NCBI GenBank assembly: GCA_003553225.1
Contig: PWDW01000059.1
Span: 1-64,000, forward strand
Source: Halanaerobiaceae bacterium
GTDB taxonomy: Bacteria > Bacillota > Halanaerobiia > Halanaerobiales > Halarsenatibacteraceae
DNA: 64,000 nt
Direction of reading: 5' to 3'
Below the pieces are notes generated by a model. That model saw only the letters and a list, made by a program, of their open reading frames with translations, searched no databases and was not told the DNA's origin. The translations under genes and the position numbers were made by a program. Below, piece by piece: positions 8,408 to 25,940 of the stretch (the stretch's first letter is position 1; each line of letters opens with the position of its first letter).

Positions 8408-9763
8408 TTAGTCGTTAAGCTTCTTTTGAGCTACCATACCCAGAACTGCAGCCGGATCTTTAGGTGAAGAATATGGTGGTGCATAACCCAGATCCAGCTG
8501 ATATAAATCATCTGCTGTTAGTCCTGAGTAAAGAGCCGTACAGAGAACATCCAGCCTTTTGTCAACACCTTTTTTTCCAATAATTTCTGCACCCAGCAGA
8601 CGATGGCTGTCTTTATCAAAAAGGCCCTTAATATGAATTTTTTCAGTTCCGGGGTAATATCCGGCATGATCGGAGTCCTGAATTTTTACCGATATATAAT
8701 TATAATCCAGTTTTTCTGCTTCTGCTTCTGAAAGCCCCGTTCTGGCGGCTGTTAGTTCAAAAGTTTTGGTCAGAGCAGTTTTTAATATGCCCCGGTGTTT
8801 AAAAGCTCCTCCGGCTGCATTTCCCCCGGCAGTTCGGCCCTGTTTATTGGCTGTAGACCCCAGGGGTACCCAGGCCGGTGCTCCACTTATCAGATCCCTG
8901 CTTTCCGCACAGTCTCCGGCGGCATATATATTTTTAACAGAGGTCTCCATTTTTTCATTAATGGAAACAGCTCCCGTGGGCCCCAGTTTGATTCCGGCTT
9001 TTTCGGCCAGTTCAGTTCTGGGGCTGATACCTACAGAAACTAAAGCCAGATCAGCCCGGATTTTTGATCCGCCGGAGATCGGGATTTCAAGTTTGTTGTT
9101 TTTATTCTGGTGGAATCCGGCTGCTGTTTTTGCACATCTAACCCGGACTCCTTTTTGCTGCAGGTGGCTGGCAATAATATCGGCCATATCTTTGCTCAGC
9201 TGGGGGAAGACCTGCTGTTCTTTTTCAATAAGGGTCACTTCCAGACCACAGCTGCTGAAAGCTTCGGCCATTTCCAATCCTATATAACCGGCCCCAATAA
9301 TTGCTGTTTTATGGACTTTGTTTTTGCGCAAAAATTTTTTTATCTGCTCTCCATCATTTAGGGTTCGGAGAAATTTAACCTGGGGGTTATCAATCCCCGG
9401 GATTTCTGGTTTAACAGGCCGGGCTCCAGAGGCCAAAATTAATCTGTCATAATAGTGCTCTTTGCTTTTTTGGGTGCTCAAATTATTAACATTTATTTTG
9501 TTTTTCTGAGGGGAGATGGAGGTTACCCGGTGTTTGGTTTTAACATAAACCTTATATTTTTTCTCAAACTCCCGGGGAGTAAAAGAAATTAACTTCTCTC
9601 TGCTTTCAGCTGTACCCGATATGTAATAGGGGAGGCCACATCCGGCATAGGAGATATGGTTATCTTTTTCAAAAAGTACTATTTCTGCATCAGGATTCTC
9701 TCTCCGGGCTTTGGCTGCAGCACTGGTCCCGGCAGCCACCCCTCCAATAATGGCTATTTTCAT
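8408..9763 (-). CDS. CoA-disulfide reductase / NADH oxidase-like flavoprotein
   Basis: 451 residues with GGAGGTGATTAC before the ATG. An FAD dinucleotide-binding motif opens the protein (IIGGVAAGTSAAAKARR). The single active-site Cys42 in SYAGCGLPYY is the mark of the CoA-disulfide reductase, NADH oxidase and NADH peroxidase group. A second nucleotide-binding motif is AIIGAGYIGLEMAEAF, then YAAGDCAE for the FAD ribityl site, and YAPPYSSPKDP in the dimer domain, whose tyrosines fit CoA-disulfide reductases. In an anaerobe it would keep CoA or persulfides reduced or remove oxygen. Distinguishing these activities needs an alignment. It is separated by 150 bases from the glycosidase upstream on the same strand. 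Confidence 0.8.
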   Translation of the reverse strand: MKIAIIGGVAAGTSAAAKARRENPDAEIVLFEKDNHISYAGCGLPYYISGTAESREKLISFTPREFEKKYKVYVKTKHRVTSISPQKNKINVNNLSTQKSKEHYYDRLILASGARPVKPEIPGIDNPQVKFLRTLNDGEQIKKFLRKNKVHKTAIIGAGYIGLEMAEAFSSCGLEVTLIEKEQQVFPQLSKDMADIIASHLQQKGVRVRCAKTAAGFHQNKNNKLEIPISGGSKIRADLALVSVGISPRTELAEKAGIKLGPTGAVSINEKMETSVKNIYAAGDCAESRDLISGAPAWVPLGSTANKQGRTAGGNAAGGAFKHRGILKTALTKTFELTAARTGLSEAEAEKLDYNYISVKIQDSDHAGYYPGTEKIHIKGLFDKDSHRLLGAEIIGKKGVDKRLDVLCTALYSGLTADDLYQLDLGYAPPYSSPKDPAAVLGMVAQKKLND

Positions 9764-9912
9764 GTAATCACCTCCTGGATGTTCTGACAGTTTATATAAT
9801 ATTTTATCATTTATAATACCATATATCCAGTGTACGGGAAGGTTATCTCAGGCCGCTGTTTAAAGTAATGACAGAAAAAGAGCCCAGATTTTTAAAAAAA
9901 TAGCAAATAAGT

Positions 9913-12900
9913 TTAAATTATTTTCAAATAGATTTTTCCTAAAATACCGGCCGGCTTATTTTTGTGTTCAATAAAATTAAGCAGGGTATTGGTAATCCGA
10001 ATTGATATTTTATTAGGCCCTGCTACCACAAGTGGTGTAATATTTAAGACCAGAGGTTCCCAGATCAGCTGTCCGGCCGGTTTGTTATTTATCTCTATAT
10101 TTGCATATTCAGCTATTTTTTCAAATTCAAGTACTATAAATTTGGGTTTTTTCTCAAGGGTAAAACTGGTGCTGTATACTGCTGTTCCGGAAAAGAAAGG
10201 ATAGCCCTGATCAGTCCAGGAGCCAAGATCCAGAGTATTGTCCGGTTGATCAAGAGCAGTGTAAGTTCCATATTTTACAATCTTAAATTGGCCCAGTATT
10301 TTGGGCATTGTGGTCAGCAGGTGCGGCTGTCCGGACCAGGAATAATGAGTTATTGTTATTTCAAGCCTGTTTTTACCTTTAATAACAGCTTTTGTCAGAT
10401 CCCAGGTTTTAAATTTTCTATCAATATAGAACCCATCGGGACCTGAAATTAATTTATCATTTATTTTTACAGCAAGGTCCATGGTCCCCATAAAAGCTGT
10501 CCTGTACTCAATATCATCAAGGAGCAGTTTTAAAGGAAGGCCTTTTTTTTTCAACCTGAAATGGGCCCTATAGTAGTAGGTAGTACCCCATTTTTCGGTG
10601 TCCTGGGCTAAAGTTAGATTGGACAGGGGATAGATGTTGGGTGAAATCAGCCGAAAGCTCCATTTTTCAGAGGGTAAAACAACTTTTTTTTCATACTGGT
10701 CAAACTGAGTATTTTCTATCCTGTTTTGCTTTGATTTCATGGTATTTGGTATGGTGTTATACAGGTGTTTCTGTAAATTCTTGCTTTGGTCAAAGCTCTG
10801 AATTCCCACCAGTAGAGATGAAGCCGGGACAAAAGAATAATTAAATATTATTCTGTTGTCTGCAATCTGGTAATTTTTCAGGGGGCTGATAGCTCCCCAC
10901 TCACTGTCGTATATAAAAGGTTGTCCGCTTTGGTTTATGATAATATCGGCATTTATAGTATGAGAGGCATTATTTACAAAAAAATAAATATTTTCATAAG
11001 AGAGCTTTCTTTTTTGATAGTAAATAAAACTGTTATCCTGGCCCTTAATCCAGACATCCGGTGGGGCAGCTTCCGGGAGTGCTTTTTTTAGTAGAGAATT
11101 GACATTTTTTCTGTTTATAGAATTATGGGCAGCTGATTGATTAGAGCCGGAGGTGGTTTTTTTAGTATTATTTGAGAGAAGTTCAGAAAAGATGATTACC
11201 TGCCCCCCACAGTTTTTAAACAGCTTTATAACATTCTTAATTTTTGGTGATAGAGCTTTATGAACGGGAACAAGCAAAATTCTGAATTGTTCATCACCAA
11301 CCATCAGCCGCTTATTATGGATTTTTGCGGTAAGCAATTTTTCTTCAGCCAGAATATCATAATCATAATGTAGGCCCAAAAGTTCAGTACATAGCAGATC
11401 AAAAATATCACTTATAGTCTGACTTTGTTCAACATGCTTACCGGGAATAAAAGAAGCTTGAAAACTGTTTAAAGGATACAGTACTGCTATGGGAGCGGAA
11501 TGTAGGCCCTGAGATAAAACATAGGATAAGCGGGCGGTATAATCAGCAAAATAACGATAAAACTTCCAGTGTAAGTTATGGCGGTGACAGGGAGGGGCAT
11601 CTGTTTTCCTGAAACCCTCTATACTGTAAAACAGGGCATGAGGACAGAGTCTGTTAATACCCAGCACAAACTGCCAGTTGACGATTTTTTTCATATCCTG
11701 CAGAGTCATATCCCAGCCTCCAAGACCAAAGCTTTCGGTAAGAATTTCATTTTTGCCCTGATTGTGGGCGGCTCCAGCCACCGTTTTTTGGCCCTGGACA
11801 TTTGTTTTGTTCCGGGGCAGATGTTCAGCCTCTCCCACCATAAAACAAAGATCATTTTCTTCTGTGGTATTGGTGAGATGGTCAATTCCCGGTATATCGA
11901 AATGAAACAGGTTCTGCATAATATTTCCCTGAAATTGTGTATTAAAGTGCAGTCCTTCTTCCAGAAGAACATGACCGGTTAATTTCAGATTGTGTTTTTG
12001 GCACCACTGCTGATACTGAGTAAAAAAGTTTTTTTCATACAGCTCTGCAGTCACCTGCCAGAATTTTTTTCTCAGTTCTTGATCTTTAAACTCCGAATTG
12101 CCGTTATTATATTCATAAAAAACAGCCCTTAAAATATGATCCAGACTGCAGCCTGTCTGTTTTTTCAGTATCTGATAGATTTTTTCATCCCAGGCGACAA
12201 CTCTACCATCCTGGTGGGCCAGAAACCAGTTAATATCCTGATGCCAGGGCAGCAGTGAGGGTTCATCGGTGAAAACACCCTTAATTGTTTTTCCAAAAAA
12301 TTGCCCCAGATGGCGGGCATATTGTTCATGGGTTAGTTCAATAAATTCGGCCACGGCTCTGGGATTCATATAATTTATACCAAAAATCTTATTATCGGGA
12401 CTATCAGGAGATTTTTTCCAGAAGAGGGCAAACCGATATTTTCTAGAGGAGTTGTTTTCCGGACAGTGGATAATTGTTTTTTTACCTTCTGGACGCCATC
12501 TGCTGTAAGGAACCGGGCCCTCTTTTTTTATCAGCTGTACACTTTTCAAAACACCATCAGTACTGTTTATTAAATTGGCCCCCGGGGCCAGTTCTAGTTC
12601 TTCCACCTCAATATACTGATTTCTGTATTCGGGTTTGCTGCTGACTTTAAGCCCTCCGATACCGCTGGGGAAGGGGTTTTCATCATAAAGCCATACTTCC
12701 ATAGATAAGGCCCGGGCTTTTTGGACACACTCCTTTATAAGTTCAAACCATTTACGGGAAAGGTATTCTGTTTCCAGGCCAAAACGAGCATGAATAAAAA
12801 ATCCACCCAGTCCTTTTTTCTTCATATCAACTATCTGCCGCAGTAGTTCAGCTTCTTCCAGGTTGGAATTCCAGAACCAGAATGGTTTTATTCTATATTC

Positions 12901-12936
12901 AGGGTCAGGATTTAAAAATTGGTTTTTATCAATCAT
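9913..12936 (-). CDS. GH106-like glycosidase (putative alpha-L-rhamnosidase), cytoplasmic
   Basis: 1007 residues with AAGGAG before the ATG. No signal peptide, so it should act in the cytoplasm. The N-terminal barrel region carries KPFWFWNSNLEEAEL, GGFFIHARFGLETEYLS and VWLYDENPFPSG, typical of large GH106-type proteins. Family-like blocks VFTDEPSL, LTGHVLLEEG and HALFYSIEG follow. The last 300 residues are beta-rich carbohydrate-binding or jelly-roll modules. The start overlaps the end of the upstream glycosidase by 8 bases, so the three glycosidases are one translational unit. With GH78 next door, alpha-rhamnoside cleavage is the best guess, but GH106-like sequences also include untested relatives. 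It is the last gene of the sugar operon. Confidence 0.75.
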   Translation of the reverse strand: MIDKNQFLNPDPEYRIKPFWFWNSNLEEAELLRQIVDMKKKGLGGFFIHARFGLETEYLSRKWFELIKECVQKARALSMEVWLYDENPFPSGIGGLKVSSKPEYRNQYIEVEELELAPGANLINSTDGVLKSVQLIKKEGPVPYSRWRPEGKKTIIHCPENNSSRKYRFALFWKKSPDSPDNKIFGINYMNPRAVAEFIELTHEQYARHLGQFFGKTIKGVFTDEPSLLPWHQDINWFLAHQDGRVVAWDEKIYQILKKQTGCSLDHILRAVFYEYNNGNSEFKDQELRKKFWQVTAELYEKNFFTQYQQWCQKHNLKLTGHVLLEEGLHFNTQFQGNIMQNLFHFDIPGIDHLTNTTEENDLCFMVGEAEHLPRNKTNVQGQKTVAGAAHNQGKNEILTESFGLGGWDMTLQDMKKIVNWQFVLGINRLCPHALFYSIEGFRKTDAPPCHRHNLHWKFYRYFADYTARLSYVLSQGLHSAPIAVLYPLNSFQASFIPGKHVEQSQTISDIFDLLCTELLGLHYDYDILAEEKLLTAKIHNKRLMVGDEQFRILLVPVHKALSPKIKNVIKLFKNCGGQVIIFSELLSNNTKKTTSGSNQSAAHNSINRKNVNSLLKKALPEAAPPDVWIKGQDNSFIYYQKRKLSYENIYFFVNNASHTINADIIINQSGQPFIYDSEWGAISPLKNYQIADNRIIFNYSFVPASSLLVGIQSFDQSKNLQKHLYNTIPNTMKSKQNRIENTQFDQYEKKVVLPSEKWSFRLISPNIYPLSNLTLAQDTEKWGTTYYYRAHFRLKKKGLPLKLLLDDIEYRTAFMGTMDLAVKINDKLISGPDGFYIDRKFKTWDLTKAVIKGKNRLEITITHYSWSGQPHLLTTMPKILGQFKIVKYGTYTALDQPDNTLDLGSWTDQGYPFFSGTAVYSTSFTLEKKPKFIVLEFEKIAEYANIEINNKPAGQLIWEPLVLNITPLVVAGPNKISIRITNTLLNFIEHKNKPAGILGKIYLKII

Positions 12937-13966
12937 TTTTATCTTTAATCTCCTTTACACACTGCTGAAAGGTAAAAAAAGCCGGTCTTTTTTTTAATGA
13001 ATAGTCCACCAGCCCCATCTTAGCGACTGAATCCGGATTGGTCTCCTCAATACGCCAGTCATTAAGAGTATGGATGTGGGCAATGGTGATAAAAGGGGTT
13101 TTTTGGAGATAGGTCAAACATTCTTGAACAAATTCACCGTGCTGTTTTTCTGTTAGCTGATCAATATTCCAGCCGTATTCTGTCAGCCAGAGAGGTTTGT
13201 GTTCATCACCATGCTGGACCATGGTATTCCTTATCTCATCAATCCATTTATAATTCAAAGCACTGCCATTACCATAGGGATGTATGGAAAGTGCATCAAA
13301 GTAAGCAGCACCATTAAATTTATACATGTCCTCTAAAAAACTGGTGTGTGATTCGAGAGAACCTCCGGCTAATTGAAAATCGGGATTTTTATTTTTGATA
13401 ACTTCATAGGTTGCCTTAAGGTAGGCAGTGTATAGTTCAGGATTACCCCCATAGATTATATCTATCGGAGTACCCTGTTCATTTCTTTTAATAATCGGCC
13501 AGCCCATACCATCCGGTTCATTCCAGAATTCATAGTATTTGATGTACTTTCCATAATGGTCAAGAGCCTGGGTTAGATAGTGGCTGTATTCTGGAAGGGC
13601 TGTTTTTTTAGGCTGAACAACATTCATCAGGTTAGCCACTCCTTTTTTTCGAAATAAATCGCAATCTTTTTTCTCCAGTTCACTGGCCCACCGGGGTACT
13701 GAAGAGAGATTACCTACAATTTCAATGTTTTTTTGGTGCAGTAAAGAAATAATTTTGTCAGCTGTTGGTTCCCAGGAAATTTTGTTCGGACCGGGCTGGT
13801 TGCAGGCCCAGTTTAGGGGCACCCGGACGGTTGTAACTTTCAGTTCGGCAATTAGTTCCAGCAGATGGGGAACTTTTTTTTCAAAATCAGCCCCCAGATT
13901 GCTGCCATTTTTACCAAAGACAACCCGGGCTCCCAGCACAAGATGGGGATTATATTTATTTTTCAT
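12929..13966 (-). CDS. Clan GH-A glycosidase (GH39/GH5-like), cytoplasmic
   Basis: 345 residues from the ATG at 13966, one base after the GH78 stop, with AAGGAAG as ribosome site. A longer frame to 14053 would overlap GH78 and lacks such a site. A retaining TIM-barrel glycosidase is indicated by the acid/base Glu150 in EFWNEPDG and the nucleophile Glu263 in LTEYGW, with the substrate-side block SIHPYG. The layout resembles GH39 beta-xylosidases and related families, but the exact family is not certain. There is no signal peptide. In the operon it would act on oligosaccharides trimmed by the two rhamnosidases. Confidence 0.75.
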   Translation of the reverse strand: MKNKYNPHLVLGARVVFGKNGSNLGADFEKKVPHLLELIAELKVTTVRVPLNWACNQPGPNKISWEPTADKIISLLHQKNIEIVGNLSSVPRWASELEKKDCDLFRKKGVANLMNVVQPKKTALPEYSHYLTQALDHYGKYIKYYEFWNEPDGMGWPIIKRNEQGTPIDIIYGGNPELYTAYLKATYEVIKNKNPDFQLAGGSLESHTSFLEDMYKFNGAAYFDALSIHPYGNGSALNYKWIDEIRNTMVQHGDEHKPLWLTEYGWNIDQLTEKQHGEFVQECLTYLQKTPFITIAHIHTLNDWRIEETNPDSVAKMGLVDYSLKKRPAFFTFQQCVKEIKDKND

Positions 13967-13967
13967 T

Positions 13968-16727
13968 TTACAGCTTCCTTTCCGGATTATGAACCCTGAA
14001 TTTGTAATTACCTGAACCTGTATGATAGATATATTTATCTTTTTTTTGTTCACTTAAGTTAATATTTTTGATTTTTTCAAGAAGCTTTTTCCCTTCGTAT
14101 ATTCTTGAATGGGCTTTTATTGGAAGATATACCCTGGCCCTTGTATTAACGGGAATTAGAGCCGATAAAAGGAAATCATTTTTTTGTTTCTCCCAATTTA
14201 TTTTGATTGTACCATAACTTGATTTAAATACACCTTCGGCCTTTGTTATACCTGCTGATGGATGAGGATCGATGATAATATTTTTGAAGCCCCCACTGTG
14301 ATCGGCATTACGGAGCCCGCATAAATATTCATAAAACCAGCTGCCTACAGCTCCCAGGGCACAGTGATTAAAAGAGTTCATATCCGGGTTTTGAAAACCC
14401 CATTGTTCGGTAAAACCATCCCATCGTTCCCAGATTGTGGTAGCATTTTGTTCAATCATATAACCCCAGGAGGGATAGGATTTTTGTTTGAGAATCCTGC
14501 CGGCAAGATCACTGTATCCATTTTCCGATAAAACAGAAAGTAAAAAACCTGTTCCTACAATTCCGGTAGTTATATGCAATTTTTTTTGTTTTAATTTTTT
14601 TATGAGCTGGTCGAGGGCTAATTTTCTTTGTTTATTAGTTAGTAGATCAAATTTCAAGGCCAGTATATAGGCTGTTTGGGTATCATCCGTTATCCTGCCG
14701 TTATCAGCTACAAATGATTTATTAAAAGCGTTTTTAACTTTTAGATGAATATCCTGATAATAACTAACTTTTTTAGGTTCATTTAAAAATTTCGACATTC
14801 TGAACATCAGATGGGCGGTATAGGCCAAATAAGCAGTGTTAATAAGTGTTTTGGATGTTGAACCAGAGTAATTATCATTTTCAGGATTCGAAGTTCGGTT
14901 TTCATCATTTAAACTCAGCCAGTCCCCAAAACCATAATCCGGCCCTATATAATTTTTTGAATTTTCTACTTTGTATTCCATCCATCTGTTCATACCAGAA
15001 TAGTTTTTTTGGATAATGCTTTTGTCTCCATATATTTTATAAATTATCCAGGGAATAATTACAGCTGCATCTCCCCAGACCGGAACTCCAAAAGGAATCC
15101 CGGTAACCGGGGGCGCTGTGCTGCATAAAGCACCTTCCGGCTGCTGAGTGAGGGCAATATCAGCCAGCCATTTTTCGTATAAACAAACTGTATTCATATT
15201 AAAGGAAGCAGTTTTAGAAAAAATTTGACCATCACCAAGCCAGCCCAGTCTTTCATCCCGCTGGGGACAATCGGTGGGAACACTTAAGGAATTTCCTTTC
15301 TGGGTCCATAAAATATTTTCCTGTATTTTGTTTATTAGAGAAGAGGAAGTCTTTATATGGCCTGTTTTTTCCATCATAGAGTAAATCACACAGCCAGTTA
15401 TCTTATTCACAGTTAAGGAACCGGGATATCCTGTAATTTCAATATAGCGAAAACCGTGATAGGTGAAAAAGGGTGCAAAAAGCTCTTCACCATTACCGGC
15501 GATAATATAAAGGTCCTGCTGCTTAATAGATCGTAAGTTAGCGGTATACAGCTGTCCATTTTCATCCAGCCGTTCAGCATAATTAAGGGCAACCATCCGG
15601 CCCCGTTTCCCCCTGATTTTCAGTTTGATATTGCCAACCATATTTTGGCCCATGTCCACCAGGTAGGACCGGGAACTGATTTTTTTAATTGTTTTTGGTT
15701 TTAATAATTCTGCAGTACGAATAGGTGGTTCCTGTTGGGCAGTGAGTTGACCTGTAAACAGACCTGATTTTATGACAGCTTTGGGCCAGTAATTATCTTC
15801 AAAATTGGTTTCCAGCCAGTTTTTTATTTCCCGGCACGCATCATATGCCATACCCAGCAGTAAATCAGAATAAATTATCGGACCCGTAGTGACCCGCCAG
15901 GTATTATCGGATACAATAAAATCAGTTTGTTCATTCCTGTACTGTATAGATAATTGAACCAGCAGAGCGGGAGCTGTCCCATACTGGAAAGGTCCTACAT
16001 GGGCAATATTCCCTGCATACCAGCCATCACCGGCAATAATTCCCACTACATTTTTCCCGGGCTGTAAATAATTTGTCACATCATAGGTCTGATACTGTAA
16101 TTTGAAATTATAATCTGTCCACCCCGGGGTCAGCAGATTCCGGCTTATTTTTTGCCCATTGACATAAATCCGGTACAGCCCCAGAGCGGTTGAATAAATT
16201 CGGGCCCGGGTCAGACCTTCTTTTAGGGAAAAGGTTTTTCTAAAATAAAGGGCCGGTGTTTTTTGACTGATTTTCTTATTTAATGATTCGGAATTGGCAA
16301 AATTGTCCCTCAGAAAGTTAACAATACTTGCATTCGGCCCCTTTTCAGTTGTCCGCGCTCCGATCCAGGCAGCCTGCCAGTCATTTTTCTTAAGCAGTCC
16401 CATCTCCCACCAGCCCGTGCTGCTAAATTGTGAGGGAGAATTGTTTTTATCCCATACTTTAACTTTCCAGTAATATCTTTTTTGGGAAGATAGGCTTTTA
16501 CCCTGATAGGCAAAATTCACTGATTTATCCGTATTGATTTTTCCACTATCCCAGAAATCACCTTGATCGCAATTTATAATTTTTTTTTCTGAAGCCACCA
16601 GGATTCTGCAGGCCGTCTGATGCTGATTTCGGTCATCAGACTGGATCTGCCAGCTAAGACGGGGCCGTAAGTTATCAATTCCCAGAGGATTTTTTCTGTA
16701 TTCCACTTTTAGATTATTGATCTGCAT
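13968..16727 (-). CDS. GH78 alpha-L-rhamnosidase, cytoplasmic
   Basis: 919 residues with AAAGGACT before the ATG. The order is that of multidomain bacterial GH78 enzymes. The N-terminal beta module is seen in NPLGIDNLRPRLSWQI, and a carbohydrate-binding module follows (LYRIYVNGQKISRNLLTPGWTDY). The (alpha/alpha)6 barrel begins with the conserved VPTDCPQRDERLGWLGD block near residues 480-496, which holds the catalytic acid. Later blocks are GDWLSL, TTIWERWDGF and FNHCALGAVGSWFYEYL. No signal peptide, so it removes terminal L-rhamnose from imported oligosaccharides. It lies 110 bases downstream of the binding-protein gene, with a stable hairpin between. Confidence 0.9.
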   Translation of the reverse strand: MQINNLKVEYRKNPLGIDNLRPRLSWQIQSDDRNQHQTACRILVASEKKIINCDQGDFWDSGKINTDKSVNFAYQGKSLSSQKRYYWKVKVWDKNNSPSQFSSTGWWEMGLLKKNDWQAAWIGARTTEKGPNASIVNFLRDNFANSESLNKKISQKTPALYFRKTFSLKEGLTRARIYSTALGLYRIYVNGQKISRNLLTPGWTDYNFKLQYQTYDVTNYLQPGKNVVGIIAGDGWYAGNIAHVGPFQYGTAPALLVQLSIQYRNEQTDFIVSDNTWRVTTGPIIYSDLLLGMAYDACREIKNWLETNFEDNYWPKAVIKSGLFTGQLTAQQEPPIRTAELLKPKTIKKISSRSYLVDMGQNMVGNIKLKIRGKRGRMVALNYAERLDENGQLYTANLRSIKQQDLYIIAGNGEELFAPFFTYHGFRYIEITGYPGSLTVNKITGCVIYSMMEKTGHIKTSSSLINKIQENILWTQKGNSLSVPTDCPQRDERLGWLGDGQIFSKTASFNMNTVCLYEKWLADIALTQQPEGALCSTAPPVTGIPFGVPVWGDAAVIIPWIIYKIYGDKSIIQKNYSGMNRWMEYKVENSKNYIGPDYGFGDWLSLNDENRTSNPENDNYSGSTSKTLINTAYLAYTAHLMFRMSKFLNEPKKVSYYQDIHLKVKNAFNKSFVADNGRITDDTQTAYILALKFDLLTNKQRKLALDQLIKKLKQKKLHITTGIVGTGFLLSVLSENGYSDLAGRILKQKSYPSWGYMIEQNATTIWERWDGFTEQWGFQNPDMNSFNHCALGAVGSWFYEYLCGLRNADHSGGFKNIIIDPHPSAGITKAEGVFKSSYGTIKINWEKQKNDFLLSALIPVNTRARVYLPIKAHSRIYEGKKLLEKIKNINLSEQKKDKYIYHTGSGNYKFRVHNPERKL

Positions 16728-16765
16728 GTTTTCTCAGTCCTTTTTATTATAAACCGGGGTTATGT

Positions 16766-16797
16766 AGCAGCCCCTGTGAGTACTGACAGGGACTGCT
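16766..16797 (-). other. Intercistronic hairpin after the binding-protein gene
   Basis: AGCAGCCCCTGT (16766-16777) faces ACAGGGACTGCT (16786-16797) with one C/A mismatch and an 8-nt loop. No T-run follows on the minus strand, so it looks more like an mRNA end-protecting or partial-termination structure than a full terminator. Confidence 0.6.
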
Positions 16798-16836
16798 TGA
16801 GTGTAACTTCTTTATAACATTAAATTCGAATAGTGT

Positions 16837-18135
16837 TTAATTTAGAAAGAGGTCATCCAGCTTGGACTGGACAAGGGGCTTAATTTCATTCATGGCTGCA
16901 GCCGCGCTTTTTTCACCGGCAAATACTTCTTCCAGAGCAGTCCACAGGTCAACCCCAATTACCCCTTCCATCAGGAAATTGGTAACTCCGGCAAAGTTGT
17001 CATTAACATCTCTGAGAACTTCAGCTGTTTCCCTGTTGGTAACCCTTTCAGCCAGGTACTCTTCAAAAGGCAGGTCTTCCTGTCCCCGGAAGAGGTATTT
17101 ATCCAGGGCCAGCAGAGCTTCCGGATTACTGATATTGGAAGGGAAGACACGGGATTCGATAGCCTGGGCAGAAAACACATAATTATCTGCCTGGGGACCC
17201 CGGGGAATAGGGACAACAACGAATTTATCAGCCGCTTCTTCCAGACTTGTTTTAAAATCACCTTCTGCCAGACCATAGGGCATAATAACCTGCATGGCTA
17301 AATATCCATTTATCAGGGGATTATCGGGCAGATCTACACCCATGATTTCGTCTTCATTTACCCACTGATTTACCTGGTTTATAGCCTGTAAGGCTGCTTC
17401 CTGATCAAAGGTGAACATCCTTCTTCCGTTCTCCTCAACTGTTACTGATGCATTGTTACTGGCGGCCAGAATTGTGGTCAGCAGACCATTGTGATGGATG
17501 TTAAAACCAAATCTGTCGATCTGGCCATCACCATCAGTATCTGCGGTAGCTGCTCTGGCAATTTCAGTAAAGGCCTCCCAGGTCCATTCTCCCTGCTGGT
17601 AAAGTTCAAAAGGATCAGCAGTACCTATTCTTTCCAGCATACTCTGGTTATATATGACCAACCAGACGTGGTTTGCATAGGGAGCAGTATGCCCGAAGGC
17701 ATAGCGGTTGCCCCGGTGATCAAAGGCTTCAATTCTCTGGATCTCTACAGTGGTAAAATCATCATAGTAATCATCGGGCAGTATATGGCCCAGTGGATAT
17801 AAAGCACCCTGGGGCATTACATCAAAGAAACCCACCATATTCTGAACGGTCCAGATATCATAAGCTGATTCCCCGGTCAGCAGACGGGACATAATCCCTT
17901 CCCCATAGGGTTCGATCCAGGGATAGATATGATGCTGGGTGATTTCACAGTTAAATTCTTCTTCGGCGGAACTGATTCTTTCCTCACTTATACCGGCAAA
18001 CATGTTATACCACCCAACATACCTGACAGTTCTGCCTCCTAAATCAAAATGTTCCCGGGCGGAGATTGAAATAGAGACTGACATTAATAACCCCACAATT
18101 ACCAGCATAATTATAAAACTTCTTCTAAGGGTCAT
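16837..18135 (-). CDS. Periplasmic sugar-binding protein of an ABC transporter (family 1)
   Basis: 432 residues from the ATG at 18135, which follows AAAGGAGG. Residues 1-26 are a Sec signal (LRRSFIIMLVIVGLLMSVSISISA) with no lipobox Cys, so the protein should be free in a periplasm rather than a lipoprotein. The mature part begins with VRYVGWYNMF and has family 1 features: AYDIWTVQN, WTWEAFTEIARAA, the Asp-rich DTDGDGQIDRFGF calcium-loop-like segment common in oligosaccharide binders, and QAIESRVFPSN near the end. It sits between the two permease genes and three intracellular glycosidases, so rhamnosyl oligosaccharides are the inferred ligand. It has its own 337-base upstream gap and probably an extra promoter. 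Confidence 0.85.
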   Translation of the reverse strand: MTLRRSFIIMLVIVGLLMSVSISISAREHFDLGGRTVRYVGWYNMFAGISEERISSAEEEFNCEITQHHIYPWIEPYGEGIMSRLLTGESAYDIWTVQNMVGFFDVMPQGALYPLGHILPDDYYDDFTTVEIQRIEAFDHRGNRYAFGHTAPYANHVWLVIYNQSMLERIGTADPFELYQQGEWTWEAFTEIARAATADTDGDGQIDRFGFNIHHNGLLTTILAASNNASVTVEENGRRMFTFDQEAALQAINQVNQWVNEDEIMGVDLPDNPLINGYLAMQVIMPYGLAEGDFKTSLEEAADKFVVVPIPRGPQADNYVFSAQAIESRVFPSNISNPEALLALDKYLFRGQEDLPFEEYLAERVTNRETAEVLRDVNDNFAGVTNFLMEGVIGVDLWTALEEVFAGEKSAAAAMNEIKPLVQSKLDDLFLN

Positions 18136-18472
18136 TTTGGTTCCTCCTTTTAATTTGTTGATCTGTGTTACTTTGAAAACCTTCATCCCTGTCCAGCAAG
18201 CCAAATATGATTTAATATTCTGAATAATAATTATTGAGGCATTCCCCCTTTCTTATAATAACAAATTTACTGTTCCGGGAAGACTATTTATACAGTAAGC
18301 AAATACCGTTATTTTCATATAATATTTAATTGAACTATTTGGAGCCAGAATCAACAAACTCACGAATCACAATTCCCAATATAGAGGAGAATTTTAGCTG
18401 AAGAGTTATGGTGATTTTTTCTTCAGAACAATCATTTTAATTATATTAATATTATTTACCAGAAAAATCAGG
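18136..18472 (-). promoter_or_regulatory. 337-base leader of the binding-protein gene with operator-like inverted repeat
   Basis: No gene is seen here. TTACTGT (18267-18273) and ACAGTAA (18292-18298) form a perfect 7-bp inverted repeat with centres 25 bases apart. On the minus strand TATTATAA (18253-18260) is a -10-like element just downstream of it, but no good -35 is present, which would fit an activator-dependent promoter. A weak 6-bp hairpin lies at 18398-18426. No regulator gene for the locus is in the window. Confidence 0.35.
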
Positions 18473-19426
18473 TTAACCAACCAGACCGGTTCTATTAATA
18501 CTTTCTACAAAATATCTCTGTAATAAGGCATACAGCAAAAGCAGAGGGGCCACAAACATCAGACTGCCCGCATTTATAACAGCCGTGGTTTGAGGTCCTT
18601 CTATAATTCTGCGCAGACTGGCAAGGGTCATTGGTAGGACTGTATTACCGGACATAAATATATTAGTATAGAAATAATCATTCCACTGCCAGACAAAAGA
18701 GAACAGAAAAACAATTACCAGGGCCGGGATGGCTCCGGGCAGCATTACCCGTAAAAAGGCAGTAATTGGAGAAGCACCATCTATATAGGCTGCTTCTTCC
18801 AGCTGCCGGGGCATATTTCGGAAAAACTGCCTCATAATATAGATAAAAAGACCATTTTTCATACCCACTGCCGTAAGAGATGTGAACACAAAAGGCCAGA
18901 AACTGTTGAGCAGATTAATGCCTTCTCCCGGCAGCAGGCCAAAAAAGGTAAAATATCTAAAATTTAAATACAGGGGAATCATGATCATCTGGGGTGGAAT
19001 TACTAGGGTTAAAATAACAGCCGCAAAAATAATGCTCTGGCCCCGAAATTTAAATCTGGCCAGTCCATAACCTACAACAGTACAGGATATCATCTGCAGA
19101 AAACCTACCAGTGAAGCCAAAAGTAAAGAATTCACAAAAGCCACCGGATATTCCATATCACGGAAAGCCCGGGTGAAATTGTTTAAATTTGGGTTGCGTG
19201 GTATCCACATCACGGTTTGATCATAGAAATCAGTTAGTGACATAAGTGCAGAAGATAATTTAACCAGGAGGGGAAAGATAATAATATAGCAAATTCCGAT
19301 TATTAATACCGCCCTGATAATGACATAAAGATAATTTTTCAGCCTATCAGGTCTGATGCTCAAAGGATAAAATTTGTGAATATTTTTGAACTCTTTATTT
19401 ACTGAATTAATCGATTTTTTATTCAT
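18473..19426 (-). CDS. Carbohydrate ABC transporter permease (MalG type)
   Basis: 317 residues. An N-terminal cytoplasmic tail precedes six membrane helices (first AVLIIGICYIIIFPLLVKL). The EAA loop that docks the ATPase is EEAAYIDGASPITAFLRVMLPGAIPA, the typical form for sugar importers of the MalG/LacG group. Other family signs are LARFKFRG and WNDYFYTNIFM. It follows the MalF-type permease by 26 bases on the same strand. No ATP-binding subunit is encoded in the locus, so it probably uses a shared MsmK-type ATPase encoded elsewhere. Confidence 0.88.
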   Translation of the reverse strand: MNKKSINSVNKEFKNIHKFYPLSIRPDRLKNYLYVIIRAVLIIGICYIIIFPLLVKLSSALMSLTDFYDQTVMWIPRNPNLNNFTRAFRDMEYPVAFVNSLLLASLVGFLQMISCTVVGYGLARFKFRGQSIIFAAVILTLVIPPQMIMIPLYLNFRYFTFFGLLPGEGINLLNSFWPFVFTSLTAVGMKNGLFIYIMRQFFRNMPRQLEEAAYIDGASPITAFLRVMLPGAIPALVIVFLFSFVWQWNDYFYTNIFMSGNTVLPMTLASLRRIIEGPQTTAVINAGSLMFVAPLLLLYALLQRYFVESINRTGLVG

Positions 19427-19452
19427 TTCAATTCACCCTTTTTCCCCTTCAC

Positions 19453-20364
19453 TTAATCCTGATAAAAGACTGTTCTTGAAATCAGAGAGATCACAATAAT
19501 TAGGATTAAAGATACAGTAATAAAATATATAAAAGACATAGCTGTGCTGACCCCATAGCCAGCTCCTCCAAAAGCCTCACGTCTTATTAACTGGACCAGC
19601 TGATTTTCCGGTGAGGTAAAAAAATCGACTACAGTATAAACAACATTGGTCAAAATCAGGGGGCTTAACAGAGGGAAGGTAATCTTCCAGAAAGACTCCC
19701 AGCCTGTGGCTCCCTCGACCCGGGCTGCTTCATATAGAGATGGGGGGATGGACTGCAAACCGGCAAGAAAGATCAATATTTGAATAGCAGAACGGTTTAT
19801 TATTCTGGTTATATTAAACAGAATATCAATAACATAAACCAGCATTCCCTGGGGCAGTCTGATCTGCATCAGCAGACCGGCCAGAATATCTCTACTAAAA
19901 ATTCCGGAAGCTGCCTGACTTTCACGAAGAAGCTGCATACTGTAATTACCCTGCTCCATCATCAGCACCACACCTGACCCCATAATCACCGGTAGAAAAA
20001 AAATAGCCCGGGCCAGCATGCGTCCCCGAAATTGCTGATTAAGAAGTACTGCTGCAAATAAGCTGAAGATAGTAATAGCCACCACATTATTAATCATTCC
20101 CCCTACGGTTTCCCCCAGAGTGCGTATATATTCAGGATTTATAAAGAGAGCAAAATTATAATTCTGCCAGGCTATAAACTCCAGTCTATATCCTTCCCGG
20201 GTAATAATTAACCTGCTGAAACTAAACACAATGGACTGAATAACCGGATATAAAAAGAAAAAAATAAAACCGATAATAAAAGGCAGGGTAAACAGATAGC
20301 CATATATATTGATTTTTTGCTTTAAAGTAAATTTGAATATCCCGGGTCTTTTCATATTAATCAT
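19453..20364 (-). CDS. Carbohydrate ABC transporter permease (MalF type)
   Basis: 303 residues, with the start overlapping the end of the DUF5696-like gene by 8 bases and GAGGGGAG before the ATG. Six helices begin with GYLFTLPFIIGFIFFFLYPVIQSI, the standard opening of MalF/UgpA-type sugar permeases. The EAA loop is YEAARVEGATGWESFWKITFPLLSP. The segment between helices 3 and 4 (residues about 135-180) is longer than in many family members. It pairs with the MalG-type permease to form the membrane channel. Confidence 0.87.
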   Translation of the reverse strand: MINMKRPGIFKFTLKQKINIYGYLFTLPFIIGFIFFFLYPVIQSIVFSFSRLIITREGYRLEFIAWQNYNFALFINPEYIRTLGETVGGMINNVVAITIFSLFAAVLLNQQFRGRMLARAIFFLPVIMGSGVVLMMEQGNYSMQLLRESQAASGIFSRDILAGLLMQIRLPQGMLVYVIDILFNITRIINRSAIQILIFLAGLQSIPPSLYEAARVEGATGWESFWKITFPLLSPLILTNVVYTVVDFFTSPENQLVQLIRREAFGGAGYGVSTAMSFIYFITVSLILIIVISLISRTVFYQD

Positions 20365-23203
20365 TCTCCCCTCTGATAAAATCTCTTCCGGGGATGATTA
20401 TATTTTCATACTCAAAAGGTTCCTGATTGTAATTCACGAGGATATAAGCACCTTTTTCATATATTGTCTTATAAACTCCGGGGACCAGTTCCTCGTGTCC
20501 AATTATTATCTGGGATTCCAGGCCAGACTTCACTTTTTGATATCTGTTATAAAACTCAACTGCTTCCTCAAGCCAGATCTCATAGTTAGCTGAATAAAGG
20601 TCATTATGACGGGTGTTTTTGACAATTGAACTGGGGCTGTACATCCATTTGTAATAGGGAGCGGCCCCGGTTTCAACCAGCTTTAAAAGATAATTTTTAT
20701 AATCCTGGGCAAAATTTATTGGAGTTCCGGAATAATTAATATATCCGTGTATCACAATCTGGTAAAAAGGTATTTGCCGGTCAATAATATTAAAATGAGT
20801 GGCATAGAGTGGTAAATTCAAAATATTATCCACATAAGAAAGCATAAAAGCATTACCATATTCAATAGTAATCTCTGCTGTATTTTGAGCAATTTCTACT
20901 GTTAGTTCTTCTATAAATTTTTGGGCCTGAGTTCTGTCGATCAATCTGTCTGGATTTTCCCTAAAGTCTGAATTGATTTGTGAACCACTGTGGGTTAGTG
21001 ATAGGCCCTGAATATTGTAATTTGCCAGCTGACCGGCAAAAGTTCGTCCCACCTCCAGAGCATATTTTGGTGAGACTATATACCGGTAATGATTTTCCCG
21101 GAATTTGAAAGTAACCGGGTCATATTCGTGAATCTTTGCGATTTTTCTGTTTAAGAGCCGGGCAGCATGATTTTTACTGTTAAAACCATCAAAAAAAGTA
21201 TCCCGGTAGACATTTAGAAAACTGACATCAGGAAAAAAACTAATATCTTTTTCCTGTAAAAAATCAATAAATTCAATAAGCTCCTTTCCAGAACCTATTT
21301 TTTCTTCCGGTTTTATTTCCAGAGGCAGGCTGTAATTTAAACCACCCTTCAGCCAGCCCAGATATCTGACCACAATATTTTCAATTTGACCCAGCTCTAA
21401 GGTTGACAGGATTTCCCGGGCCTGGGTATAGGTGGTAAGGGGTTCTACTATCCGCCGCGGGGCACCCATTACCGGTTTTTCAATATCAACAGCCCCAATA
21501 AAATCAATAAAAAAGGGCAGTGACTGTTCAGGGGAAAGTCTTTCTAAGTTATATTTATTAACTAAATACTTTTGATAGGAGAGAGCCATATCCACATAAT
21601 CAGGAGTCTCCTGTTCTACAAAGATATATCTGAGCTGTATATCTTCAGCCATTAATCGAGATTGATAGATATTAATAGAGCCCATAGCAATTTCATCGGT
21701 TGTTGTCTGCAGACTGGTTGCTGCCATTGGGATTAGAGTAAATTCAGCAAAAACTTTGTTATAATTATTTATTCTGCCGGCAATATCAGCTCTGATATGG
21801 GCTAATGCTGTCCCTCCTTCTATAACAGCTATAAAAGCACTGTTTTCAGTTTTAAGCCCATAAACCGGGAGAGGGGCCGGATAATCGGAAAATAATTTTT
21901 GTTCTGCAATTCTCAATGATCTATCAGTACCATAAACCTGCTGTGAATAAGAAGAATACTGAAGTTTTTGATTGTTTAACTTAATTAAGGCACCTGAACC
22001 ATTGGGAACCAGCATATATCCCTCTGCATCACTACCGGCGGCACCAAAAAGAGGAAGGAGTTCTATTGAATGAAGAGGTAAAGTTGTTGTCTGGCCCCGT
22101 TCATTTTTAAGAGGTACTCCCCGCTCATCGGTTATATAACCCGATCTGTCCTGCATAAAAGTTATGGGAATATCTTTGGGATAAACAATGTCATCCCGTG
22201 GGATACGAACCACGAGATTATTGTCCTCCAGAATATATTCCACAGCTATCTGAAAAACCTCATTTGTGGATCTGGGGGGAGGAATATTATTTTTAATATT
22301 GTCAATTTGTTTTTCTACAGGAGAATAGGATGTGTTTTTGATGATTTCAATCATAGCATCCCGGTCCCAGGTAAAAATATGCTCTTTGAGAATATATGTT
22401 GTGATCTCCTGCAGCTGACTGACATCATCAGAAGTAATGTCCTGATAATCAATTATATCATCACGGTATCTTTTGAGGGTATTGCCCAGCAGTTCAATTA
22501 AATTTCTTCTTTGTTCTTTACCCACCATTTCTCCGGGAACCGTAAGGGCATAAGCGCCAAAGACCTTCTCAATATCAATGCTGAGCATCTGGAGTCTATC
22601 GAAATCAGCATCAATTCTTTGCAGGGTTACCGGCTGGTATTTATCTTTTAAAAATCTAATATCAGTTTCATTGGTAAGTTCATTCAGAATCAGGTTTTCA
22701 AATCGACTTTCTGATATAATAATGGGCAGATAATCCACATTCCGCCATTCCTGTCCCAGAGTATAAGAGATTCTAACTCCCTTATCCAGATACTCTAACG
22801 TGAATTGTTCATGCAGGATACTATCACTGTAATTATTTTTATATCTTTTTATACCTTCAGGTGTATAATAGCTGAGAGCAAATTGTTCATTTAATTTTTC
22901 TTTATTGGTACCCCGGGCAATGGGGTCCTGAGCTCTATAGTAAGGATTGGAAAACCAGATTATTGAAGTCTGTAGATCTTCAACCGCAAATTCAGTTGTA
23001 TTTTCATTAAAATAAAGATTTGCTCGATTATTAGATGCAATAACTGCAAATTCATCCAGGTTATAATTGTTACTGGCTGCAGCAGCTGGAACTAAAAACA
23101 ATAATCCGGTTAAAAAACCTATAATCAGGATGTTATTTGCTATTTTTTGCAGCAAAATAAAAAATATATTTTTAGCTGAAACAAAATTATTGGAGTAGTT
23201 CAT
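20357..23203 (-). CDS. Large exported DUF5696-like protein of the sugar locus
   Basis: 948 residues. A hydrophobic N-terminal segment ending VPAAAASNN looks like a long signal peptide or anchor, so the bulk should be periplasmic. I recall proteins of this kind (DUF5696) beside sugar ABC permeases in Paenibacillus-type genomes, and I assign it from that memory and from blocks such as GYMLVPNGSGALIKLNN, LPVYGLKTENSAFIAVIEGG and VVRYLGWLKGGLNYSLPL. The second half alternates strands and helices like a TIM barrel: ISFFPDVSFLNVY, IQGLSLTHSGSQINSD, ITIEYGNAFMLSYVDNILNLPLY. A glycoside-hydrolase-like role is an inference; catalytic residues are not established. It is coupled to the MalF gene by overlap and lies 18 bases after the NHL gene. 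Confidence 0.6.
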   Translation of the reverse strand: MNYSNNFVSAKNIFFILLQKIANNILIIGFLTGLLFLVPAAAASNNYNLDEFAVIASNNRANLYFNENTTEFAVEDLQTSIIWFSNPYYRAQDPIARGTNKEKLNEQFALSYYTPEGIKRYKNNYSDSILHEQFTLEYLDKGVRISYTLGQEWRNVDYLPIIISESRFENLILNELTNETDIRFLKDKYQPVTLQRIDADFDRLQMLSIDIEKVFGAYALTVPGEMVGKEQRRNLIELLGNTLKRYRDDIIDYQDITSDDVSQLQEITTYILKEHIFTWDRDAMIEIIKNTSYSPVEKQIDNIKNNIPPPRSTNEVFQIAVEYILEDNNLVVRIPRDDIVYPKDIPITFMQDRSGYITDERGVPLKNERGQTTTLPLHSIELLPLFGAAGSDAEGYMLVPNGSGALIKLNNQKLQYSSYSQQVYGTDRSLRIAEQKLFSDYPAPLPVYGLKTENSAFIAVIEGGTALAHIRADIAGRINNYNKVFAEFTLIPMAATSLQTTTDEIAMGSINIYQSRLMAEDIQLRYIFVEQETPDYVDMALSYQKYLVNKYNLERLSPEQSLPFFIDFIGAVDIEKPVMGAPRRIVEPLTTYTQAREILSTLELGQIENIVVRYLGWLKGGLNYSLPLEIKPEEKIGSGKELIEFIDFLQEKDISFFPDVSFLNVYRDTFFDGFNSKNHAARLLNRKIAKIHEYDPVTFKFRENHYRYIVSPKYALEVGRTFAGQLANYNIQGLSLTHSGSQINSDFRENPDRLIDRTQAQKFIEELTVEIAQNTAEITIEYGNAFMLSYVDNILNLPLYATHFNIIDRQIPFYQIVIHGYINYSGTPINFAQDYKNYLLKLVETGAAPYYKWMYSPSSIVKNTRHNDLYSANYEIWLEEAVEFYNRYQKVKSGLESQIIIGHEELVPGVYKTIYEKGAYILVNYNQEPFEYENIIIPGRDFIRGEND

Positions 23204-23221
23204 GATGGCCGGGCCCCCTTG

Positions 23222-25414
23222 TTAAAGTCGGAAAGTAATCTCATAGTATATACTGCTGATAAAAGCACTGACCTGACCGATAACGACAAAAAATAACAAA
23301 ATGATAACCATGGTGGCGCCCATACCGATGACAGTTAGAGAAGAGGTGAGCAGATTTTTATTAAGATCAAATTCGTGTATTGTCATCATGCCCGAAAATA
23401 ATAATAACAGGGACCAGACCAGGGCTAATCCGATAAAGAAATAATAAAATGATCCTTCTTCCAGGAGCATAAAATTGCTAATTATTGCAAGTGGAAAGTT
23501 AATTAACGGCAGTGGAACCAGGGCATAGGAGGTGGTGATCACAATTTCTCTAAAGGAGCCCTTACCGTCCATCAGGGTGGTCAGAGCCCAGTTGGAGGTA
23601 CACCACAGTAAAAAAGGTATTAGAACTACCGCAAACTCTTTATAAATATTTAACTTTTGTGCTTCCCAGGGATTGAAAATAAAACCGGTATACTGCCTCA
23701 TGAAAACATAGGATAGACATAATCCCACAATAATTATCACTGCTGAAAAAAGAGTTCCGATCCGGTCATGTTTCAGATCCCAGAAACCGGAAAAAGGGTG
23801 AAATATCACCTTCAGGGCATAAATGGTACTTAGTGCTGTTTGTTTAATTTTATTTAAAGAACCGGATTGCTGACGATATCTGTCCATAGTAGTGGAAAAA
23901 AATATTTCCGGATCATCAATCTGAGTTTTAAAAATTCTTTTTCGGATAATTTCTGCTGTATTTATTTTAAATAAAATAAGGAATAACAAAATTAAACCTC
24001 CTAAATACATGATAAATTTTCCGAAATTATCTTTAATAATCAGCTCCCGGTAGAATCTAAAAGCCCGGGAATAATCTTTTCTATTATTTCCCAGCCGGAA
24101 ATGAAACATTGCTTTTTCAAATTCATTCTGACTCAGATAAATTCTACCTATTCCACTGTAGGCCAGATCATAGTTTGTATTAAGTTTTAAAACTTCCTCC
24201 CACATTGTTTCGGTTTTATCAGACCGGCCCTGTTCGTAATACCACAGGGCAGCATGAATATATCCGGTATAAGTGGTGGGAGCAAAAAAAGTAAGACGGC
24301 CATTTTCTTTATCCAGTATCACCAGCTGTCCGGCATTCGGACCTTTTTCTTCCAGAACATCAAGAGCCACCGGATTTCGGAAAAGCCCCCTGAGATGTCC
24401 GGGGCCACCAAATATATACAGAAGATTACCACTGCGGTCATAGGTGAATATTCGCCCCCGGCGGCGGTCAAGAACACTGTATATACCATTGGTTCGAGAA
24501 ATTATATCCACAAAAAAGGAAGGTCTGGTTTGCGGATCATCGAGAGTATAGCCGGCCCGATCTATAATATCTCCCTGCGGAGGATGAAAACCGGTGGTTC
24601 GCAATTTATCACTTCCCCCATCCGGGGTCAGCATTTTTATATCATCATTTTCGGTTACCAAAATAAAACCCTCAGGTGTGATATCAACAGCACGATATTC
24701 GGTGGGTAAAAATAATGCCATTCGGGCCCTCTGCTCCCGGGTACCAAATCTTTTCCAGAAAATATCTTCCACCCCCGGTGTCACCCGGGGTGCTCCTATA
24801 AAACCCCTGAAATCGCCCATTTGATCAAATAACATTATCCCATCATATATATTACGCCCCAGCACCAGGATCTCTCCTTTGGGATTGACTGCTATTTTAA
24901 GAGGATTGAAAATAAAATTTTCCGGTAAAATATCACTGTACTCCGGACCGGGGGCCTTTATTTGCCTCAGGAAATCACCGTTTACATCCAAGATTACAAT
25001 TCTCCTGTTTTCTGTATCAGCAATATAAATTTTGTTATTTCTTATATAAATCCCCTGTGGTCTGTTAAACTGCTCTCTGATGTCCATAATATAAAAGTGA
25101 TCAAAAACCAGGTGTTCAAAACCCGGCAAAGAAAACTTAACAATGCGGTTATTTCCGGTATCAACCACATAGATCTGGCCATTATCTGTAATAAAAAGGT
25201 CTTCCGGATTATTGAAATTCTGCAGGCCCAGATCAAGACCTTCAATAATCTTAACCGGAAGATAAGCCTGGGGTGCGGGTACCGGGTTCCCCCAGAAATC
25301 AAAAGTATAGTTATGATAGGGAGCGGGCAGAGCAGCCGACACAGCCAGCTGATATGCAAAAATTATGAAAAAAATAAAAATTATTAAAATAAAGGAGTTC
25401 ATTTTATATTTCAT
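23222..25414 (-). CDS. Exported NHL-repeat/TPR protein with C-terminal Yip1-like membrane domain
   Basis: 730 residues. A signal segment (NSFILIIFIFFIIFAYQLAVSAA) is followed by NHL beta-propeller repeats, with clear repeats at FNNPEDLFITDNGQIYVVDTGN and FNRPQGIYIRNNKIYIADTEN, to about residue 370. TPR-like helices come next (ALWYYEQGRSDKTETMWEEVLKL; LAYSGIGRIYLSQNEFEKA), then a membrane helix (FIMYLGGLILLFLILF). The last 190 residues have five or so helices starting HPFSGFWDLKHDRIG, the Yip1 opening. It is first in the sugar operon and precedes the DUF5696-like gene by 18 bases. The architecture suggests a periplasmic scaffold or sensor tied to the transporter; no enzymatic site is seen. Confidence 0.75.
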   Translation of the reverse strand: MKYKMNSFILIIFIFFIIFAYQLAVSAALPAPYHNYTFDFWGNPVPAPQAYLPVKIIEGLDLGLQNFNNPEDLFITDNGQIYVVDTGNNRIVKFSLPGFEHLVFDHFYIMDIREQFNRPQGIYIRNNKIYIADTENRRIVILDVNGDFLRQIKAPGPEYSDILPENFIFNPLKIAVNPKGEILVLGRNIYDGIMLFDQMGDFRGFIGAPRVTPGVEDIFWKRFGTREQRARMALFLPTEYRAVDITPEGFILVTENDDIKMLTPDGGSDKLRTTGFHPPQGDIIDRAGYTLDDPQTRPSFFVDIISRTNGIYSVLDRRRGRIFTYDRSGNLLYIFGGPGHLRGLFRNPVALDVLEEKGPNAGQLVILDKENGRLTFFAPTTYTGYIHAALWYYEQGRSDKTETMWEEVLKLNTNYDLAYSGIGRIYLSQNEFEKAMFHFRLGNNRKDYSRAFRFYRELIIKDNFGKFIMYLGGLILLFLILFKINTAEIIRKRIFKTQIDDPEIFFSTTMDRYRQQSGSLNKIKQTALSTIYALKVIFHPFSGFWDLKHDRIGTLFSAVIIIVGLCLSYVFMRQYTGFIFNPWEAQKLNIYKEFAVVLIPFLLWCTSNWALTTLMDGKGSFREIVITTSYALVPLPLINFPLAIISNFMLLEEGSFYYFFIGLALVWSLLLLFSGMMTIHEFDLNKNLLTSSLTVIGMGATMVIILLFFVVIGQVSAFISSIYYEITFRL

Positions 25415-25661: not shown

Positions 25662-25940
25662 TTATTCACTTTCGACCCTGCTGCCGGCAATCTCCAGCTG
25701 GTTATCAATCCGGTCATAATTGATATTGGACTGTTCTATTCTGTCCCTGATTGCTTTTTCGATACGATGTTTTATCTGTTCAGATTTAACCTGACCGGAT
25801 AATTTTATTACTCCCTGATGACAGTCAATTGAGAAATTTTTATTATTTTTAAGCATGGGGTGTTCATTGACAGCACCGGTGGCCTGGTACAGTATTTTCT
25901 CATCTTTGTAACCTCTTTTAAAAAAGTTAAAAATAGTCAT
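25662..25940 (-). CDS. BON-domain protein
   Basis: 92 residues with AAGGAGAGG before the ATG. Nearly the whole protein is one BON domain: a helix-rich start, then CHQGVIKLSGQVKSEQIKHRIEKAIRD, matching the pattern of a strand with conserved G and L-x-G-x-V followed by a helix. BON domains bind membrane lipid or support osmotic-shock and secretin proteins. No signal peptide is visible, so it is cytoplasmic or peripheral. It is transcribed alone between two unrelated units. Exact role unknown. Confidence 0.75.
   Translation of the reverse strand: MTIFNFFKRGYKDEKILYQATGAVNEHPMLKNNKNFSIDCHQGVIKLSGQVKSEQIKHRIEKAIRDRIEQSNINYDRIDNQLEIAGSRVESE

Follow-up and report, generated by a model that had tools for sequence, protein, structure and literature searches.

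Sugar importers of the CUT1 type (the MalFGK, UgpAE and MsmEFGK kind) are ATP-binding cassette (ABC) transporters in which an extracellular solute-binding protein (SBP) and two permeases bearing EAA loops are combined with a MalK- or MsmX-type ATPase supplied in trans and with cytoplasmic glycosidases. In Paenibacillus, a still unidentified mechanism couples surface xylan hydrolysis to rapid oligosaccharide uptake (PMC4765114). In Bacillus, the Yip1 protein YknW modulates assembly of the YknXYZ ABC complex (PMC4887032). The subject here is a locus at 9913-25414 of a 64,000-nucleotide stretch, the window (contig PWDW01000059.1 of GenBank assembly GCA_003553225.1, from a Halanaerobiaceae bacterium), where two head genes, for an NHL-TPR-Yip1 membrane protein and a DUF5696 protein, adjoin the genes of a CUT1-type importer. 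What is new is not the importer type, which is known, but that these two uncharacterised protein families are apparently, from their genomic linkage, an obligate part of a widespread form of it. No paper mentioning DUF5696, and no description of the module, was found in the open-access literature (subscription journals not covered).

The five-gene core and its linkage

All eight open reading frames (ORFs) of the locus are on the minus strand where the first-pass annotation of this sequence had placed them, and each of its assignments is backed by Pfam. The first head gene (23222-25414) encodes a 730-aa membrane protein consisting of an NHL propeller (Pfam NHL 1e-18), TPR helices, a transmembrane segment and a Yip1 domain (PF04893, E=8e-12, and 1.3e-17 in locus L037). 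The second (20357-23203) encodes the 948-aa DUF5696 protein (PF18952, E=9e-187), exported or anchored and with a predicted fold like that of the glycoside hydrolase (GH) families GH129 and GH101. An 18-base gap (23204-23221) separates the two, and the DUF5696 gene overlaps that of permease A by 8 bases (20357-20364), exactly the spacing reported earlier. Permease A, on the MalF/UgpA side and of a module-specific subfamily (19453-20364; BPD_transp_1, EAA-loop motif YEAARVEGA), is followed by permease B, on the MalG/UgpE side (18473-19426; BPD_transp_1 E=3e-15, EAA-loop motif EEAAYIDGA), and by the SBP (16837-18204; SBP_bac_1 E=6e-11). A signal peptide of normal type begins at Met24 of the SBP, which is therefore probably the real start, the annotated TTG start being too early.

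The two MalF/MalG-type permeases with EAA loops and the exported SBP are the features of a CUT1 importer, and by their sequences the module permeases are a distinct subfamily within which these loops are kept. The locus had also been described as complete, which does not hold, as an ATPase gene is absent from it. Because the EAA loops are present, the locus is without an ATPase gene and the genome has one OB_MalK-type ATPase, on another contig (C248), a shared MsmX/MalK-like ATPase would serve the importer.

The window locus looks like one of ten copies, in the same genome, of a cargo-agnostic core consisting of NHL-TPR-Yip1, DUF5696, permease A, permease B and SBP. A search of this draft assembly (269 contigs, 96% complete) found ten DUF5696 genes (one recovered as two matches) and an equal number of NHL-TPR-Yip1 genes, and in the locus maps the latter directly precede the former in all ten copies. 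An SBP accompanies every copy and permeases A and B adjoin the pair in nine, the contig of the tenth (C45) stopping inside DUF5696. The copy on C169 is rearranged (SBP, permease B, NHL-Yip1, DUF5696, permease A), with all five genes kept. The cargo differs among the copies, being GH78/GH106 in the window locus, GH10 on C269, a sulfatase and a GH42-type enzyme on C128, a BNR sialidase-like protein on C247, and GH130 with DUF1861 and an apiosidase-like protein at the first and second copies on C82, respectively, which would mean that the core is reusable and not bound to one substrate. Since these enzymes vary between core copies, a device specific for rhamnose was rejected. LacI/GntR regulators flank some copies and vary from copy to copy. 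Among eight sampled genomes of the family, PF18952 is present in the source genome only, and at least four label changes are needed in the gene tree to account for the copies of this genome, which together suggest that the copies were acquired from at least two sources or go back to old duplications followed by losses. The closest named DUF5696 relative is from Halanaerobiales (L030, 40% identity).

The same 300 genomes from across the Bacillota were searched with PF18952, with an NHL-TPR-Yip1 profile and with a profile of module-type permease A. PF18952 was found above its cut-off in 26 genomes, permease A at E<1e-40 in exactly those 26, and strong NHL-TPR-Yip1 matches in the identical 26 and in G244. 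In G244, a truncated NHL gene at a contig end (L164:1276-2130, on G244:C103; 206 bits), with no other core gene in view, is probably what remains of a decayed module. The NHL-Yip1 profile had matches in 101 genomes, all but 27 of which were discounted as generic NHL-repeat proteins (<60 bits). Weak PF18952 matches elsewhere, including Thermotoga and Lactococcus, are below the cut-off, cover part of the barrel only and, in the loci read, resemble alpha-amylase-type proteins; these were not counted.

Neighbours were counted in those genomes of this sample with up to three copies, for which a full listing was possible: the NHL partner is upstream of all 24 DUF5696 matches and a permease is downstream of 23, the last match running to the end of a 4.7-kb contig. 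In 80 GTDB loci picked by similarity, the partner is upstream of 74 of the 75 testable DUF5696 ORFs and the permease downstream of 72 of 73; one of the two failures is a frame-broken fragment and the other seems to come from faulty ORF picking in a locus rich in GC. Scores of permease A homologues in these loci are bimodal, with the whole of the high group (94/94) directly downstream of DUF5696. The core is essentially always kept together, even where its order is rearranged (L021) or its genes are split, and between proteins down to 27% identity. Chance neighbourhood is ruled out by the ten copies in one genome and by the agreement in 26 of 26 genomes, and the fixed, transporter-linked pair that had been proposed is upheld by these and by the GTDB loci; a search for head-gene homologues without permease linkage did not overturn it.

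Two architectures were seen. The five-gene form occurs in Halanaerobiales and in many metagenome-assembled genomes, and a larger form in Paenibacillus, Gracilibacillus, Lederbergia, Caldicoprobacter and Lachnospiraceae, in the order SBP, a 960-1000-aa protein, a first permease pair, NHL-TPR, Yip1, DUF5696 and the module permease pair. The 960-1000-aa protein combines an SBP with a long N-terminal extension (CBM35/golvesin-like, weak match) and, with its own permease pair beside the module, makes a double-transporter locus (L051:2985-5897; L105:2869-5802; L092:2925-5855; L037:14722-17733). In most loci of the larger form NHL-TPR and Yip1, fused in the window locus, are encoded by two adjacent genes, as seen in Paenibacillus, Gracilibacillus, Lederbergia and Butyrivibrio (noted for L105:7684-9144 and 9128-9754; L092:7665-9185 and 9178-9804; L180:6753-8848), and such fusion or fission would be a sign of joint function. 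The NCBI annotation names the proteins piecemeal, as NHL repeat-containing protein, YIP1 family protein and DUF5696 domain-containing protein. The Butyrivibrio plasmid pNP243 carries a copy of the module beside GH43. A plasmid copy in Paenibacillus cellulosilyticus (L181:4490-18260) carries, in place of glycosidases, a UgpC ATPase and three LLM-class flavin oxidoreductases, and may take up something other than a plain sugar. Just downstream of two module copies are two exported proteins of 570-585 aa with no Pfam match (L025:10102-11859; L026:11072-12781), possibly an unrecognised glycan-handling family.

The cargo of the window locus is a cytoplasmic GH78 alpha-L-rhamnosidase (13968-16727; five rhamnosidase domains, Pfam to 1e-113), a clan GH-A glycosidase (12929-14053; Glyco_hydro_cc E=1.4e-7, motifs WNEPD and TEYGW), translation of which probably starts at an internal Met some 30 codons downstream, and a GH106-like rhamnosidase (9913-12936; Glyco_hydro_106 E=1e-15, covering about half the profile, with a rhamnoside_JR domain). 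An N-terminal signal is absent from all three, as had been claimed. Upstream of the operon, a small ORF of about 90 codons (25663-25940, minus strand) starts at an ATG preceded by a GGAGAGG-like ribosome site; judged by eye, it may resemble a BON domain protein.

Predicted structure of the head proteins

An AlphaFold2 run on an alignment of 76 DUF5696 sequences gave a model with a pLDDT of 93.6 and a pTM of 0.89. Its best Foldseek match in the PDB is the 3,6-anhydro-D-galactosidase DagB (5opq, E=1.1e-30, TM 0.68 by target; also 8rzk), with further matches to NagBb of GH129 (5wzn, 8e-25), GH101 and GH36. Sequence profiles reach 5opq at E=1e-11 and 5wzn at 4e-6, and in hhalign the barrel aligns over its full length with two GH101-like proteins (E ~4e-6). 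As these three comparisons agree, DUF5696 is predicted to be a remote member of the GH129/GH101 alpha-glycosidase superfamily; the comparison with TIM-barrel glycosidases that the first-pass annotation had proposed was thus positive, by both profile hidden Markov models and Foldseek. The window barrel is matched by PF18952 only, with no match to PF11308 or PF12905 anywhere in the genome, and PF11308 was empty in every genome searched.

GH129 members from Bacillota were sought for mapping the catalytic residues and none came via PF11308; two GH101-like proteins of genome G082 (L168:1417-2733 and L169:61-2691, one only 438 aa), in which the Asp at the end of beta4 and the Glu at beta5 are kept, were used instead. 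The positions were mapped by predicted strands and hhalign, not by superposition, and a barrel-only profile, compared with PDB sequences, stopped short of beta4. The canonical place of the catalytic Asp is the end of that strand (737/738), where the window protein has T737/H738. Asp is present at 738 in 41 of the 76 members, 28 have no acid at 737 or 738, and five of the nine aligned copies from the source genome are without an acid there. The place of the acid/base Glu (end of beta5, near 781) is acidic in about half, with acids at both strand ends in only 26/76. The LHLDGW motif of NagBb corresponds to Y-x-GW in DUF5696, where the near-invariant residues are instead D427, D746, D808, E844 and R757. 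On this mapping the family as a whole would not keep the catalytic residues of GH129 and GH101, and an altered catalytic site would be possible. A hydrophobic N-terminal helix is found in 74 of the 76 members, a lipobox-like motif in at least 17 and a C-terminal transmembrane segment in none, and the protein is predicted to face outward and often to be anchored.

The NHL-TPR-Yip1 model (pLDDT 90.1) has an N-terminal export helix, a propeller to about residue 380 that is matched by NHL propellers in Foldseek, TPR helices at 381-445, a long transmembrane helix and Yip1 helices at 531-729. The linker after the transmembrane helix is poorly conserved (0.88 bits) and the Yip1 helices are the best conserved part (2.62 bits). 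From a scan of hydrophobicity, the NHL-TPR part is predicted to be extracytoplasmic and the Yip1 part to be embedded in the membrane. Since the genome encodes proteins of the Omp85 family (a BamA-like gene at G000:C248:48061-48897), the source organism is probably diderm, and the extracytoplasmic side would be the periplasm here and the cell surface in Paenibacillus.

Possible roles of the head pair

The head pair is probably made up of accessory subunits of the importer, and with almost the same assurance the whole locus may be read as a cargo-agnostic CUT1 importer core, to which the pair adds extracytoplasmic subunits and which is powered by a shared ATPase. The Yip1 part and the transmembrane helices would pack against the permease pair, with propeller and TPR forming a dock on the outward side of the cytoplasmic membrane. 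On this dock DUF5696, descended from a glycosidase of the GH129 type and mostly lacking the canonical catalytic pair, would be seated as a glycan-holding subunit and would hand oligosaccharides to the SBP and the permeases. That it is a non-catalytic receptor is quite possible, at somewhat less than even chances. Import would be driven by the shared MsmX/MalK-type ATPase, the cytoplasmic glycosidases cutting the sugar afterwards, and in the window copy the presence of GH78 and GH106 suggests that the oligosaccharides are rich in rhamnose. The contacts, the holding of glycan, the shared ATPase and the substrate are deduced from linkage, folds, export and co-divergence, which come from sequence and prediction. 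Between loci (28 compared), the distances correlate for all ten pairs of core proteins (r 0.69-0.86, 0/2000 permutations), and the SBP is the most variable core protein (mean identity 30%), followed by DUF5696 (36%).

Several observations weigh against an accessory, glycan-holding pair. The correlation of distances is partly due to a few close pairs and to joint inheritance. Conservation is equal on the open and closed faces of the barrel (2.16 vs 2.16 bits) and gives no pointer to a ligand site; a conserved open face as the sign of a common ligand was dropped as the closed face scores alike. D427, D746, D808 and E844 could form a relocated catalytic pair, and the YknW precedent belongs to an exporter, not an importer.

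DUF5696 might instead represent a new GH family and be an alpha-glycosidase that is active outside the cytoplasm, where it trims oligosaccharides at the importer, with NHL-TPR-Yip1 only as its anchor. This is a serious alternative, if one that is tentatively held, given a fold like those of GH129 and GH101 and remote homology to both, the near-invariance of the same four acids, and the precedent of Zobellia DagB, the closest structural match, which like its homologues is active though of the two catalytic residues of NagBb only Asp435 (Asp486 in DagB) is kept (PMC5698469). The 36% identity among members would also leave room for different specificities. However, T737/H738 at the end of beta4, and the 28 members that are non-acidic there, fit an enzyme poorly, and a fixed link to one permease type across unrelated cargo would be unusual for an exo-enzyme. 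That same link, which follows the permease subfamily and not the cargo, would suit a pair acting in assembly or quality control of these permeases, as YknW does for YknXYZ, without touching sugar. Its Yip1 precedent and the unremarkable conservation of the open barrel face agree with such a role, but a glycosidase fold of 900 residues is odd in an assembly factor and DUF5696 has diverged more quickly than the permeases, as would be expected of a protein that faces the substrate. This is the less probable of the two.

Sensing of extracellular sugar, with signalling to the cell or gating of transcription, is very unlikely: propeller and TPR are interaction domains and there are LacI/GntR regulators beside some copies, but a cytoplasmic effector domain is absent, the linker on the cytoplasmic side is both short and weakly conserved, and the regulators are ordinary soluble proteins that differ between copies. 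It is harder still to credit that the genes move as a transfer unit without joint function. The patchy distribution in the family and the plasmid copies would fit this, but separation is essentially never seen in a very diverse sample, despite rearranged orders and split genes.

Comparison with described systems

If the accessory-subunit reading is true, two large and so far unstudied parts belong to a class of sugar importer that is common in plant-polymer-degrading Bacillota, PF18952 and the bacterial NHL-Yip1 proteins gain a function, and the module is a candidate for the coupling of hydrolysis to uptake in Paenibacillus (PMC4765114). The module would then also serve in annotation, as a gene cluster that contains it could be recognised as an uptake locus irrespective of the enzymes encoded.

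The module shares with the CUT1 importers the SBP, the two permeases with EAA loops and the cytoplasmic glycosidases, and would share with them an ATPase supplied in trans. It differs from them in two additional, seemingly obligate extracytoplasmic or membrane proteins and in a distinct permease subfamily; the module loci of Paenibacillus, Caldicoprobacter and Butyrivibrio further contain a 970-aa SBP and a second pair of permeases. Like YknWXYZ of Bacillus, it ties a membrane protein with a Yip1 domain to an ABC transporter; that system, unlike the module, is an exporter with an adaptor protein and a MacB-type permease, and no propeller or TPR has been reported for YknW. DUF5696 has the beta-sandwich, TIM barrel and C-terminal beta-domain of GH129 (NagBb, 5WZN), of the GH129-like DagB (5OPQ, 8RZK) and of GH101, with GW and YxxSP motifs in common and Foldseek E-values from 1e-30 to 1e-24. 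It is unlike them in its identity of only ~10-12%, an extra helical insert, the lack of a PF11308 match, the unconserved catalytic positions, the anchored N-terminus and the linkage to a transporter.

The SusD-like glycan-capture proteins of Bacteroidota offer a functional analogy, in that DUF5696 would likewise be a glycan-holding partner fixed to a transporter across many cargo sets. It can be proposed, tentatively, that the module represents a class of its own among the carbohydrate ABC importers of Bacillota, with an obligate core of five proteins, in which a GH129-type glycosidase turned glycan receptor, on its NHL-TPR-Yip1 dock, couples polysaccharide breakdown to uptake and so would be a counterpart of SusD on an ABC transporter. 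The analogy with DUF5696 is one of function only, as the folds are unrelated and SusD belongs to a TonB channel of the outer membrane, whereas the module belongs to an ABC transporter of the inner membrane.

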